DNA from: Gudongella oleilytica
GTDB lineage: Bacteria; Bacillota; Clostridia; Tissierellales; Tissierellaceae
Assembly (NCBI RefSeq): GCF_004101785.1
Contig: NZ_CP035130.1
Coordinates: 682,001 to 746,000 of the forward strand
Direction: 5' to 3'
Length of the DNA: 64,000 bases
Below are positions 8,590 through 13,732 of this stretch, in pieces (positions within the stretch are counted from its first letter, which is position 1; every line of letters starts with the position of its first letter). Under the pieces are notes generated by a model. The model searched no databases, had not been told where the DNA came from, and worked only from the letters and a program-made list of their open reading frames with translations. The translations under genes and the position numbers were made by a program.

Positions 8590-8785
8590 ACTGGTTGATT
8601 AGTTTGACATCCCAGACAGAACCGATTACATTGACACCCCAGATAAGTAGTGATGGTAACACCTGAATGCGCTGTGATGGTACACATCCCAGATACATAG
8701 TGATGGAAACTTTTCAGATCGGTAGTGATTACTTTGACACCTGGATGTGCTGTGATAGTAACTTTCCAGATTAGCAGTGAAAGAG
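8590..8785. repeat. Array of imperfect ~25-bp repeats, likely the end of a lost IS21-family element
   Basis: About eight degenerate units of 22-27 bases follow one another, with a shared core of the form GTGATNGTNACACCCCAGAT. Examples start near 8635, 8660, 8685, 8710 and 8740. The spelling AGTGATTACTTTGACACC within it is the kind of multiple repeat found at the ends of IS21-type elements, where IstA binds. No istA or istB gene is present. The units vary too much for a CRISPR array. Confidence 0.45.
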
Positions 8786-8875: not shown

Positions 8876-9073
8876 ATGAATAAGGTATTAGACCTGGATG
8901 ATTATTTTGTACAGAAAGGGATTGAAGAACTTCCTGGCAGCTTAAAAAAAGTCTTGAGCAGAGTTGTAGAAGATATAGCGAGTGGAGCAGCAGAAGGCAG
9001 AGCACCTGATGATCAATGGGAAAGAGCTGGGGATAATCTGAATGTTGTTCCATCTAACCTGAACTTTGCATAA
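8876..9073 (+). CDS. Small protein of unknown function, C-terminus replaced by an IS end
   Basis: The frame gives 65 residues starting MNKVLDLDDYFVQKGIEELP, with an alternative start at 8828. AAAGG lies ten bases upstream of ATG 8876. The last codons and the stop fall inside the terminal inverted repeat of the neighbouring insertion sequence, which begins at 9060, so the native C-terminus was probably longer. Composition is acidic with one helix around GSLKKVLSRVVEDIASG. I do not recognise the family, and it may be a fragment. Confidence 0.35.
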   Translation: MNKVLDLDDYFVQKGIEELPGSLKKVLSRVVEDIASGAAEGRAPDDQWERAGDNLNVVPSNLNFA

Positions 9074-9113
9074 AAGTTACACTAAATACTTTTTGAAGCT
9101 GAAAAACGTTGCC

Positions 9114-9326
9114 TCAGATATCTAAGAATGTCATCAGTTCCTGCAAGCTTTTACCACTTTTTTGAAAAGCCTCCATTACTTGTTTTGCCTCGTGTTCCTT
9201 CTTACGCTTTTGAAGTTCCAACAGTCTGTCGGATAGAGCCTCCTGTTTTTCGTGAAGTTTTGCTAGCTCACTATTTATTTTTGCAATTTCAGTTTCAATC
9301 GAAGTTATCGATTTCGTCCGAGCCAT
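9114..9326 (-). CDS. IS-borne small coiled-coil protein
   Basis: A 70-residue protein. ATG 9326 follows AGGAGG at 9336-9341 on the minus strand, and the gene overlaps the last 32 bases of the transposase, so it is probably coupled to it. Residues 5-50 form a heptad-like coiled coil (IETEIAKINSELAKLHEKQ, then more of the same) followed by EAFQKSGKSLQELMTFL. The same plan, coiled coil plus KSL-x-E-x3-F, occurs in the partner gene of copy B at 13410. It resembles DUF4315-like small helical proteins in shape. A role in transposition, such as a transposase assembly or regulatory factor, is inference. Confidence 0.65.
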   Translation of the reverse strand: MARTKSITSIETEIAKINSELAKLHEKQEALSDRLLELQKRKKEHEAKQVMEAFQKSGKSLQELMTFLDI

Positions 9327-11058
9327 CGTCGTATTCCTCCTCATCCTGGATATCTGTATTTGTAATCAGCGACTGGTTCTTTGACAATAGATTGCCGATT
9401 CCACCTGCAATATCACGAATATTATTCTCGTCCATGCCGAATGAACTGAGAATTACCTTCTGCCGCTTTGTTACAGCGTGATCAAGCCGATAATGGCCTT
9501 TACCCCGCCTAACCATTTCGATTTTTTCCAGTTCGCGAAGCGCTGCAGGCACCGTCATATAATTCGGTTTAGTCTCTAATCGAAGCATCGTTTCCTTCAA
9601 GAGGTTGTAGATTCTGTTACGGACAATCAGTGCAATAAATTCGATAAACAGCTTTGCCGATAATGATTCGGAAGACTGGACTCGGTTGCTTTTTGAGCCA
9701 ATAAACGATTTGTCCGTACTGAACAGTTTTTCAGAGATATCTCGGCCTTTATAATGGATAAGTGCCTGTGATGCAGTCATTTCAGTAGAGGTGATAATGC
9801 AGAAATAACCGCATTGCTCCAACTTTTTCCGTACTACATCCTTTTTTTCTGTATACGAGACAAGCGTATGCTTGCTGTTATAGTGAAGGTCAAAATATTC
9901 ATGATACACGTTCCCGAGTGTGATGTCTTTTCCAATATGCTTTTCCAGATATAATCCAAGTCTTTCAATCAGTTGCTCCAACTGTTCTCTCTCAGCAGCC
10001 TGTTTGGAAGGGTTGAAGTATAAATGGAAATATCTAAGGGCATCATCGTCCTCATACAACTTAGCTAAAACTGTTTTTCCATATACTCTGTATGAACGGA
10101 TAGAACACTCACGATCAGTTTCAAATGTATTTCGGTTCGCTGTTATCAGCTCAGATACGAGGTTTTTACGACCTTTAACCATGATGATGAAGGAGTAACC
10201 ATTATCTTCCATGTATTTTATATTGGCTTTACTGAAATATCCTCTGTCCAGAATAAACCCGACCGATTTATAATTGTACTCTTTCACCTTGTCTACCATA
10301 TACTCAAATTGGGAAACATCGGTTATTGAACCTGGATACTCTTCATAAAATAGCGGAACTCGATTGGTCTTATCAAATGCTAATGCAAGATTGAACACCG
10401 GAAGTCCTTTTTCATCCTTCGCTTTGCCATATTCTATAAGATCGATATCACCGGCTTGGCAGTTCTTGTTTGTTGAATCATACGAGATGTAAATGCATTG
10501 TCTGTGATCACGTTTTTTGTTCCAGTCATTTAGGAAGCCAATAATCTGTTCCCGAGTAACCGATTTAAGGAACCGACTTACTTTTGAATCGCTGTATATC
10601 CTCATTCCTTCTGAAAACAGCGGGTGGTTAAATGCAAAATCAGGATAGTACTGGCCTGCATTTTCTTCATTAACAATCAGATATGCCATTAGATCGAGTA
10701 GTAATCCACAGTCTTTTGGAAACCATGTATTCAGAAGACTCTCTAACTTATATTCTTGGAGAACCTTTTGAATTACCGCATATGAACCAATCTTTAAAGC
10801 GCAGCTACGATAAGACTCCGGCAGTTCTTCTGGAAGGGTAACATCCGGAAAGTAATCCTGAAATTTTTCGTTAGGATACATCAGATCATGATTATCTTCA
10901 TGAATTTTTCCAATGATAGTACGCTGGGGTATGACATACTTCTTTTCAGCATTATATTGTTGGCCGTATTGAAAAAGGACATAAGTTGAATCGCCCTTTT
11001 TCTTGGTGATTATCTTGCCCCTAACCTGAGGGATTTTGACCGTGTAATCGTAGTACAT
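9295..11058 (-). CDS. IS4/IS1634-type DDE transposase (copy A)
   Basis: A 587-residue transposase. The catalytic Asp residues sit in YISYDSTN (about residue 193) and GFILDRGYFS (about 268). The third acid falls in a perfect IS4 signature Y-x2-R-x3-E-x6-K, spelled YKGRDISEKLFSTDK. The ATG has AGGAGG at 11065-11070. Length and spacing match the second transposase at 11691, about half identical by eye, and both carry the same N-terminal layout with a VKIP motif and a GKxxEDxxxMxPNEK motif. The frame is intact, so the element may still be active. Confidence 0.88.
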   Translation of the reverse strand: MYYDYTVKIPQVRGKIITKKKGDSTYVLFQYGQQYNAEKKYVIPQRTIIGKIHEDNHDLMYPNEKFQDYFPDVTLPEELPESYRSCALKIGSYAVIQKVLQEYKLESLLNTWFPKDCGLLLDLMAYLIVNEENAGQYYPDFAFNHPLFSEGMRIYSDSKVSRFLKSVTREQIIGFLNDWNKKRDHRQCIYISYDSTNKNCQAGDIDLIEYGKAKDEKGLPVFNLALAFDKTNRVPLFYEEYPGSITDVSQFEYMVDKVKEYNYKSVGFILDRGYFSKANIKYMEDNGYSFIIMVKGRKNLVSELITANRNTFETDRECSIRSYRVYGKTVLAKLYEDDDALRYFHLYFNPSKQAAEREQLEQLIERLGLYLEKHIGKDITLGNVYHEYFDLHYNSKHTLVSYTEKKDVVRKKLEQCGYFCIITSTEMTASQALIHYKGRDISEKLFSTDKSFIGSKSNRVQSSESLSAKLFIEFIALIVRNRIYNLLKETMLRLETKPNYMTVPAALRELEKIEMVRRGKGHYRLDHAVTKRQKVILSSFGMDENNIRDIAGGIGNLLSKNQSLITNTDIQDEEEYDDGSDEIDNFD

Positions 11059-11069
11059 GAGCAGCCTCC

Positions 11070-11121
11070 TTTAGTGTAACTGTTACACTAAAATTATACT
11101 ACTTTTCCCTACGTTTTGCAA
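11070..11121 (-). promoter_or_regulatory. Copy A transposase promoter with operator palindrome
   Basis: On the minus strand TTGCAA (11121-11116), a 17-base spacer and TATAAT (11098-11093) form a good sigma-A promoter. Directly after the -10 box comes a perfect 23-base palindrome at 11070-11092, with arms TTTAGTGTAAC and GTTACACTAAA around one T, and its last base overlaps the AGGAGG ribosome site. The arm equals the inner part of the element's terminal repeats, so the same protein could bind ends and promoter. Confidence 0.7.
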
Positions 11122-11204
11122 GCGATTTCCATTGATTTTACAGGGGTTTTAAGACTTTTTCACACAGATTTTTACGACTTAGTGTAACCTAGATGCAAAG
11201 TTCA

Positions 11205-11533
11205 CATTTAAGTAGACTCAGGTGGATCTTATGGGTCTGTACGATCTTGCATTCCATGTGATAGTTACTGTGACCAAGGCAAGCTGGATGGCATCGCTAG
11301 TATTGCAATAAACTTGCTGAGGGTTTTAGTGAATAGGCTTCAACCACAGTAAGCGCACAATAATATATGCCTTGTAAAAATTATGGAGATGATCTCAGAT
11401 GCTAACTTCTCAAACTTTATCACACTCAATTGTTTGCTCCCTCTATTTACTGCATTGAAAAACAGCTCAAGCCACTGAAAACAAGCGGATTTTGTTACGA
11501 TTTCACTTGCACCTTAGTTCTGAACTTCCAATC
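11205..11533. other. Spacer between the two insertion sequences, no recognisable gene
   Basis: This stretch lies between the right end of copy A and the left end of copy B. A short plus-strand open run near 11214-11353 might be the tail of a lost gene, but I cannot assign it. Close to the right border a 13-base unit CTGAACTTCCAAT occurs twice in tandem (11520-11545); its second copy belongs to the copy B terminal repeat. Confidence 0.4.
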
Positions 11534-11625
11534 TGAACTTCCAATCTAATTAACTCTCAGGGATTCGAATAGTGTTTTTGATGCTCTGAAAACGTCTGTT
11601 TTTCAACGGGAAAAGCAGATTTTTA

Positions 11626-11680
11626 TTGATTTTCCCAGTGAAATATGGTATTATTATAGAGAGTTAATTAACTCTCTATA
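11626..11680 (+). promoter_or_regulatory. Copy B transposase promoter with operator palindrome
   Basis: TTGATT (11626-11631), 17 bases, TATTAT (11649-11654), then directly a perfect 26-base palindrome at 11655-11680 whose arm is TATAGAGAGTTAA. GGAGG follows at once (11681-11685) and ATG at 11691. The arrangement matches copy A base for base in spacing although the sequence differs. Confidence 0.7.
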
Positions 11681-11690
11681 GGAGGCCAAC

Positions 11691-13397
11691 ATGTACACTG
11701 ATGTGAGAGTAAAAATACCTGATGAAAAAGGAAAAGTAACTAGGAAGAAAATCAGAGGAACCACCTACATTTATTATCAAACAGATCGCATTTATGACCC
11801 GGAAAAAAAGTATAGCATTCCTAAAAGTACACCTATCGGAAAGCTCTGTGAAGATGATCAGACGATGATGATTCCGAACGAGAAATACTTGATTTTTTAT
11901 CCGGAAGCAAAGCTTCCTGAAGAAAAGAAATCCTCCCGCAGAAGTGCTTGCTTAAGAGTTGGTGCACATATGGTTCTGAAAAGAATTGTCGCTGAATATC
12001 ACTTGGATGTTTTGCTTGGAGATCTAATAGGAAAAGACAGTGGCCTTTTTCTGGATCTTGCGATATATACCATCATTACTGAAAATAATGCTGGTCAATA
12101 CTATCCGGATTATGCATACAACCATCCGCTATTTACCAGTAAAATGAGGCTTTACAGCGATTCTAAAGTGTCTGATTTCATAGCTTCAATCAAGAAAGAT
12201 CAAAGCGTTGAATTTCTCAACAGATGGAATGAAAACCGGGATCACAGAGAGAAAATCTACATATCCTATGATTCGACGAACAAAAATTGTCAGGCAGGAG
12301 ATGTGGATTTTGTTGAATTTGGCCATGCCAAGGATGATCAGAACAAACCGATATTGAATTACTCCATAGCATACGACAAGAACAATAGAGAACCGCTATT
12401 TTATGAAATGTATCCCGGAAGCGTAGTAGACGTGTCACAGCTGCAGTACATGCTTGAAAAAACAGAAGGCTATGGCTATCGACACGTTGGATTCATTCTG
12501 GATCGAGGGTATTTCAGTAAAGAAAACATCCGATATATGGACAAATGCGGTTATGACTTCGTCATCATGATGAAAGGAATGAAAAAGTACGCCCATAGTC
12601 TGGTGATGGAGAATAAAGGAACTTTCGAAGAGAGCCGAAAACACAGTATTCGGGACTATAAAGTAAGCGGAAGCACCGTGAAAGGGAAACTGTTCCCTTC
12701 AGATGAGAAAGACAGATATTTTCATATATACTTTAACGAAAGCAAGAGAACAGGCGAACGCGAACAACTGGAAGAAAAAATCGACAGAATGGCCTCATAT
12801 TTAAAATCCCAGGAAGGGAAGATGGGATATGAATGTCCGAGTGCCTTATGCCACTACTTTGAACCCTTTTATCATGGTCAGGGGGATGAAAGAGTCTTTA
12901 TGTTCGCAAGAGAGCGTCAAGATGTGATCGATAGGGAAATCAAGCTGTGCGGATATTTCATAATAATCACATCTGAAAAAATGTCAGCAGAAGAAGCGCT
13001 TGAGCTGTATAAAAGCAGAGATGGTTCTGAGAAACTCTTCCAAGGAGACAAGTCGTATCTGGGCAACAAAAGCTTCAGGGTACATGGAAGTGAATCGGTC
13101 AATAGCAAGATATTCATTGAGTTTGTCGCACTGATCATACGCAACAAGTTTTACACATATCTGAAAGACCAGATGAAGAAAAACAACAAAAGCGAGAATT
13201 ACATGACGGTTCCAGCAGCTCTTAGGGAACTGGAAAAAATAGAGATGATTCGTCAGAGTGATGGTAATTACCGTTTGGATCATGCCGTGACTGCAACACA
13301 AAAGGAAATACTTAAGGCATTTGATCTGACTGAAAGAAACATTCGTGAACAAGCGATAAGCATTAACAGTCAACTAAAAATGATTGAAGGATTGTAA
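11691..13397 (+). CDS. IS4/IS1634-type DDE transposase (copy B)
   Basis: A 568-residue paralogue of the copy A transposase. It has YISYDSTNKNCQAGD and GFILDRGYFSKENIRYM with the two catalytic Asp residues, and a perfect YREK block YKSRDGSEKLFQGDK. The C-terminus keeps NYMTVPAALRELEKIEM, nearly the same in both proteins, followed by RLDHAVTATQKEIL. GGAGG at 11681-11685 fits ATG 11691. The frame is full length. The pair diverges from a shared spacer, and their sequence difference shows they are distinct IS types and not a recent duplication. Confidence 0.88.
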   Translation: MYTDVRVKIPDEKGKVTRKKIRGTTYIYYQTDRIYDPEKKYSIPKSTPIGKLCEDDQTMMIPNEKYLIFYPEAKLPEEKKSSRRSACLRVGAHMVLKRIVAEYHLDVLLGDLIGKDSGLFLDLAIYTIITENNAGQYYPDYAYNHPLFTSKMRLYSDSKVSDFIASIKKDQSVEFLNRWNENRDHREKIYISYDSTNKNCQAGDVDFVEFGHAKDDQNKPILNYSIAYDKNNREPLFYEMYPGSVVDVSQLQYMLEKTEGYGYRHVGFILDRGYFSKENIRYMDKCGYDFVIMMKGMKKYAHSLVMENKGTFEESRKHSIRDYKVSGSTVKGKLFPSDEKDRYFHIYFNESKRTGEREQLEEKIDRMASYLKSQEGKMGYECPSALCHYFEPFYHGQGDERVFMFARERQDVIDREIKLCGYFIIITSEKMSAEEALELYKSRDGSEKLFQGDKSYLGNKSFRVHGSESVNSKIFIEFVALIIRNKFYTYLKDQMKKNNKSENYMTVPAALRELEKIEMIRQSDGNYRLDHAVTATQKEILKAFDLTERNIREQAISINSQLKMIEGL

Positions 13398-13409
13398 GGG
13401 GGCAGGCAG

Positions 13410-13634
13410 ATGGGCAGACGAAGCATATCCATTGACGAAAAAATATCTAAGCAAAAAGAAGTGGTTTCCCAGTTGAAAGATAAGTACGATTCAGCGCTTA
13501 ACGAGTTGAATGTTTTGATGAAAAAGAAACAGGAACTGCAAGGAAAAGAACTCCTAAATGCATTCGTAAACACCAGCAAAAGTCTGGATGAAATTTTGGC
13601 ATTTATGAGTGAAAACGAGGATGAAAAACCCTAA
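13410..13634 (+). CDS. IS-borne small coiled-coil protein (copy B partner)
   Basis: A 74-residue protein starting 12 bases after the transposase stop with GGGGGC ahead of ATG. Residues 8-46 form a coiled coil (SIDEKISKQKEVVSQLKDKY and onward), followed by LLNAFVNTSKSLDEILAFM. This tail lines up with EAFQKSGKSLQELMTFL of the copy A partner, so the pair is homologous despite low identity in the coil. Retention of this partner in two diverged elements argues that it does something for the element. Function unknown. Confidence 0.65.
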   Translation: MGRRSISIDEKISKQKEVVSQLKDKYDSALNELNVLMKKKQELQGKELLNAFVNTSKSLDEILAFMSENEDEKP

Positions 13635-13732
13635 AATAGGGTTTGAGAGTTAATTTTTTCAGGAAGTTAAGGATGATGATCAAGCTACTTGGTGGGTTAT
13701 TTTTTGTGAAATAATTGAGGGAAATAACATCA

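Follow-up and report, generated by a model that had tools for sequence, protein, structure and literature searches.

Two insertion sequences lie side by side in the window, a 64,000-nucleotide stretch of the Gudongella oleilytica genome, and each carries, in front of its transposase gene, a perfect palindrome made from a word that recurs in its own terminal inverted repeats (TIRs). What is such a palindrome for, and why does it follow the ends of the element? We think it probable, at roughly three chances in four, that it is a dimeric operator for autorepression of the transposase, built from the site by which the transposase binds the element ends; binding, dimerization and repression are inferred from comparison of sequences. 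The operator of the transposase–ORF2 operon would thus be a pair of inverted half-sites, each a copy of the one by which the transposase binds the ends. In a terminal repeat, an outer half (TGTNAACTTCC) lies on the cleavage side and the inner half-site, about 10 bases long, follows 7–8 bases inward; the promoter would carry two half-sites head to head over the transcription start, with the outer half absent. Because the half-sites are paired without the outer half, the operator would be expected to bind a transposase dimer without being cleaved, and accumulating transposase would occupy the promoter and so stop its own synthesis. Since the N-terminal beta-hairpin of one protein would read all three sites, any change of specificity would have to be matched at both ends and in the operator.

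Both elements are two-gene members of the IS1634 family (transposase plus ORF2), neighbors in one genome with different words. Element A occupies positions 9058–11206 on the minus strand (2149 bp). It begins with the left terminal repeat (TIR-L) TGTGAACTTTGCATCTAGGTTACACTAA (11179–11206, minus), followed by a predicted promoter with a −35 box TTGCAA (11116–11121) and a −10 box TATAAT (11093–11098, minus) at a spacing of 17, and by the putative operator, a perfect 23-base palindrome (TTTAGTGTAACTGTTACACTAAA, 11070–11092, unstranded) that abuts both the −10 box and AGGAGG. The transposase gene (9295–11058, minus; 587 amino acids; IS1634-family model NF033559 at 259 bits, cut-off 100) is overlapped at its 3′ end by ORF2 (9114–9326, minus), whose 70-residue product, starting MARTKS, is a DUF4315-like coiled coil. 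The right terminal repeat (TIR-R) CCTGAACTTTGCATAAAAGTTACACTAAA (9058–9086, plus) is made up of the outer part CCTGAACTTTG and the inner half-site GTTACACTAA. Element B (11532–13672, plus, 2141 bp) has a TIR-L TCTGAACTTCCAATCTAATTAACTCTCA (11532–11559, plus; outer TCTGAACTTCC, inner half-site TTAACTCTCA), a predicted promoter (11626–11654, plus) with −35 TTGATT (11626–11631), a 17-bp spacer and −10 TATTAT (11649–11654), and a putative operator, a perfect 26-base palindrome (TATAGAGAGTTAATTAACTCTCTATA, 11655–11680, unstranded), between TATTAT and AGGAGG (11680–11685). Its IS1634-family transposase of 568 amino acids (11691–13397, plus) has a predicted N-terminal beta domain at residues 1–63, within which residues 19, 21 and 28 are the candidate readers discussed below; ORF2, a 74-residue coiled-coil-like protein (13410–13634, plus), and TIR-R CCTTAACTTCCTGAAAAAATTAACTCTCAA (13643–13672, minus, read from 13672 to 13643) complete the element. 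The −10 boxes of A and B are sigma-70-like, the dyad lies about 23 bases ahead of the ATG in both, and the palindrome sits inside the left repeat by 86 bp in A and 95 bp in B. In each element one half of the palindrome, which lies between the −10 box and the Shine–Dalgarno sequence, is identical to the inner half of both TIRs. The first-pass annotation had described a palindrome of the inner TIR word in the same place in A and B, and the coordinates confirm it; the outer TGAACTT that it took to be common to both ends is TTAACTT at the right end of B.

The ends of element B are known exactly, because two of its three copies in the genome are flanked by 5-bp target duplications (ATTCT and ATATG) directly outside the outer 11 bases. 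The copy in the window has no target duplication and is preceded by an additional, partial left end of 13 bases (11519–11531). Its left border was placed at 11532, since 11519–11531 is an extra partial copy and the other two genomic copies start with the same sequence as that found at 11532. The 119 bases before it (11400–11518) come from a third IS1634 element, truncated to its left end, and are identical to an intact copy elsewhere in the genome (L002); they stop where the extra end of B starts. Upstream of element A, at 8600–8770, are degenerate repeats of about 27 bases (CCCAGATAAGTAGTGATGGTAAC).

About 100 relatives were collected. A profile search of genome contigs yielded 80 loci, mostly from Lachnospiraceae and other Bacillota, with some spirochaetes and one methanogen bin, and further relatives were added from viral contigs, from class and family searches and from a plasmid search, which gave one relative; the phage collection searched gave none. 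After removal of duplicates, the outer motif and the likeness of one end to the other served to locate both TIRs in about 58 elements, without use of the promoter sequence, and the ends were checked against the exact 5-bp target repeats present in many relatives. Representatives were chosen at less than 75% identity, 30 for a first test and 38 for a later one. The great majority of loci have a −10 box, a palindrome and a Shine–Dalgarno sequence ahead of the transposase start, and the words vary between clades (GTTACACTAA, TTAACTCTC, TTACGCCTAA, TGTGACTAAA, TAGTCCCT, TTATTACTCAA, GTTCCACTCAA, TACCCACTAAA, TTAACCCTC and more). Promoter palindromes with at least 9 of 11 matches occur in 53% of 93 relatives, as against 2.3% of shuffles. 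A chance palindrome was rejected, because palindromes in the relatives are far above shuffles and because the core of the B palindrome, GAGTTAATTAACTC, is found in the 2.36-Mb genome only within the three copies of B, even when one mismatch is allowed. A conserved host operator was likewise rejected: elements sharing a genome have different words, each in keeping with the ends of the element that carries it.

The coupling between ends and promoter is strong. The TIR half-site was found at 9 or more of 10 bases in the element's own promoter region in 32 of the 38 representatives; with operators permuted between elements, a mean of 4.3 and a maximum of 13 of 38 matched (20,000 permutations). The same threshold was reached by 9% of foreign TIR–promoter pairs and by none of 266 stretches taken from elsewhere in these elements. 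Among the 30 representatives of the first test, TIRs scored 10.5 (left) and 10.7 (right) against their own promoter and 7.0 and 7.2 against the promoters of other elements, and none of 20,000 permutations reached the own-promoter score. By column, in a table whose registers were fitted to the TIR–operator match, agreement exceeded permutation at half-site positions 1, 3, 4, 5, 6, 9 and 10; positions 7–8 (CT) hardly vary, and position 2 carries no information. The result held with registers fixed without the match, agreement being 7.7 of 10 versus 5.7 and the maximum of 2000 permutations 6.3. Equality of the words is thus a strong rule with exceptions. The palindrome does not always equal the inner TIR half, as had been proposed: six of the 38 representatives (L025, L042, L066, L072, L082 and L141) match poorly, at 6–7 of 10, and in the spirochaete group of L025 and L026 the operator word TTGTTACTC and the TIR word TTCCCACTC are truly different. 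In some elements (L051, L041 and L052) the left terminal repeat matches nearly the whole operator, beyond one half-site (e.g. GTGAGAAGTATCACTCAA in L051).

Shared ancestry alone does not account for this coupling. In disjoint sister pairs, eight of nine TIR changes were accompanied by an operator change at the same column, compared with 38 of 202 columns without a TIR change (p = 2e-5), and the new base appeared in the operator in the expected direction in six of the nine, a figure that fell to zero of nine with operators swapped. On the transposase tree, with registers set independently of the TIR–operator match, 22–30 TIR and arm changes fell on the same branch, versus about 10 for mismatched columns, and 15–24 were to the same base, versus 2–3; a binary test of half-site column 9 drew on only four independent changes, too few to be useful. 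A clear case is given by L041 and L073, in which both ends and both arms read ACTAAA, and their sister L058, which has ACTCA in all four. Such co-evolution of palindrome and ends across the group is what would be expected if one protein reads both sites. It could be argued that the palindrome is instead the remnant of a right end once joined to a left end, devoid of any regulatory role and similar to the TIRs through common descent or gene conversion. In elements with unlike ends, each arm does tend to resemble the opposite end, left arm with right end and right arm with left (19 elements versus 4, p = 0.003; about 12 versus 2 clades), but this orientation bias rests on about 14 clades, and a relic would hardly keep a nearly constant position relative to the −10 box and start codon over clades about 50% identical in protein, retain the TIR match in one arm while the other decays, or change its word in step with transposase residues. 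We regard it as highly improbable. For a functional operator, the arm polarity would fit derivation from, or mimicry of, joined ends minus their outer halves, and is suggestive only.

Is the site read as DNA or as RNA? IS10 and IS50 are protected against read-through by an inverted repeat at the transposase start that is complete only in read-through RNA, and a hairpin next to the ribosome site could similarly block read-through translation here. As in IS10/IS50, the inverted repeat lies at the transposase start and is whole only in read-through RNA, which folds more strongly than RNA from the element's own promoter (median −21.6 versus −6.8 kcal/mol, over a longer stretch), and the palindrome ends beside the Shine–Dalgarno sequence. 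Unlike in IS10/IS50, however, the word is that of the ends and co-evolves with them, a match that a hairpin leaves unexplained, and the ribosome site adjoins the stem but lies outside it. In 18 elements one arm matches a TIR at 9 bases or more of 10, whereas the arms match each other at only 4–7 of 10, and arm mismatches are not enriched in G–U (20% versus 17% expected). The palindrome centers contain 0–1 unpaired bases and hence no loop, and an Rfam search gave no match. The dyad lies 11–14 bases past the −10 box in most elements (median 13), so the predicted start site falls inside the left arm. Arm decay, absence of a G–U bias, absence of a loop and the position of the start site favor a protein–DNA site over an RNA hairpin, and the mRNA hairpin suggested by the first-pass annotation is not supported as the main role and appears improbable, though the palindrome may have a secondary effect on read-through RNA.

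A DNA operator needs a reader. On a tree built without the transposase N-terminus, changes in the word are best matched by changes at transposase residue 28 (z 4.2, experiment-wide P 0.0125); residue 19 comes third, residue 18 fourth and residue 21 ninth among 359 columns, and the top three columns within residues 1–45 exceed all 2000 permutations. In the AlphaFold model, residues 16–21 and 24–36 form the two strands of a beta-hairpin in the N-terminal domain (pLDDT about 80–90), and residues 19, 21 and 28 would lie on one face, as deduced from the strand register of a hairpin with a two-residue turn rather than from coordinates. K19/I21/Y28 goes with TTAACTCTC and K19/K21/L28 with GTTACACTAA (L024 has Q28), R19/Y28 goes with G at position 5 (in L065 at one end only), and E28 or D28 is often found with CC at positions 3–4. 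That these three residues are the readers is a hypothesis, as they were picked from the same data. The catalytic part resembles the Tn5 transposase (Z 14.3, rmsd 5.9 over 300 residues), and the N-terminal domain precedes the aligned part; compared with the PDB, this domain gave no E below 0.1 (best Z 3.2) and no match to a known DNA-binding fold. A sequence search against solved structures gave no match. A more specific proposal, which we put forward tentatively and hold to be somewhat doubtful, is that the N-terminal beta domain is the DNA reader with a usable residue-to-base code (residues 19, 21 and 28 against half-site bases 1–6) that would govern recognition of the ends and repression of the promoter alike; the operator would then imitate a right end joined to a left end but could not be cleaved.

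Alternatively, the repressor that binds palindrome and ends might be the small protein encoded by ORF2, acting by itself or together with the transposase. In nearly all relatives whose sequence extends past the transposase gene, ORF2 does follow it. Yet the ORF2 protein appears to be a DUF4315-like coiled coil without a recognizable DNA-binding motif, and none of its columns co-changed with the word above chance (maximum z 2.4, P 0.29); an all-pairs comparison of protein columns that took no account of phylogeny was too noisy to tell the two proteins apart. We consider it unlikely that ORF2 reads the word, while it may still serve as a co-repressor that does not read bases. DUF4315 is not mentioned in the open-access literature searched. 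The earlier suggestion that the transposase or its small partner represses itself through a site co-evolving with the ends therefore holds group-wide for the co-evolution; residue co-variation speaks for the transposase as reader and gives no signal above chance for the partner. In nine relatives ORF2 is followed, before the right end, by a third small gene: another copy of ORF2 in L081 and L091, a shared unrelated gene in L069, L084 and L142, and other genes in L146, L150, L038 and L051.

What the computation shows is how the sites are arranged, that the words of ends and operator are coupled, that this coupling is independent of phylogeny, and that it is linked to residues of the transposase. 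Palindromic self-operators such as those of LexA or toxin–antitoxin systems place a dimeric site over the promoter for negative autoregulation; here, unlike there, the same half-site is also the recombination site at both element ends. IS1634 elements, which are related to IS4, have direct repeats of 5–6 bp, a size of 1500–2000 bp and ends of the form C-----YT (PMC2266710). A and B resemble this family in their NF033559 scores (259 and 247 bits), Tn5-like catalytic core and 5-bp target duplication, but they are larger (about 2.14 kb) and differ in having ORF2, an N-terminal beta domain ahead of the Tn5-like part and the promoter palindrome. Read from one base in, the sequence agrees with CTGAACTT at B's left end and A's right end, and A's left end has G there. 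Twenty-nine other IS1634 elements from a sample of the phylum showed no excess of palindromes (6.8 versus 6.6 of 11 matches in shuffles), so the design belongs to one subgroup of the family. In IS1, InsA shares the DNA-binding domain of the transposase, binds both ends and represses the transposase promoter (PMC12428005). The autorepression proposed here, by an element-encoded protein acting at ends and promoter, would be alike, as judged from co-evolution of sites and residues alone; in IS1, however, the promoter partly overlaps the left end, whereas A and B have a separate palindrome 86–95 bases inside the left repeat. Autorepression of transposons is thus known, and what appears new is a separate palindromic site that co-evolves with the ends in IS1634 elements, of which we found no report in the open-access literature searched.

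To our knowledge, self-limitation of simple transposons has been worked out in detail in only a few cases. One protein apparently reading three sites, together with many natural changes of word, makes self-limitation and its co-evolution with the ends directly testable, and the table of residues and words is a starting point for predicting element ends from the protein. Different words would insulate coexisting elements such as the adjacent A and B, as needed against cross-repression and cross-mobilization. An Erysipelotrichaceae bin also contains near-identical copies of both B and the L002 element, and a near-identical B is found in a viral contig as well (L049, L053 and L094), which suggests recent transfer.
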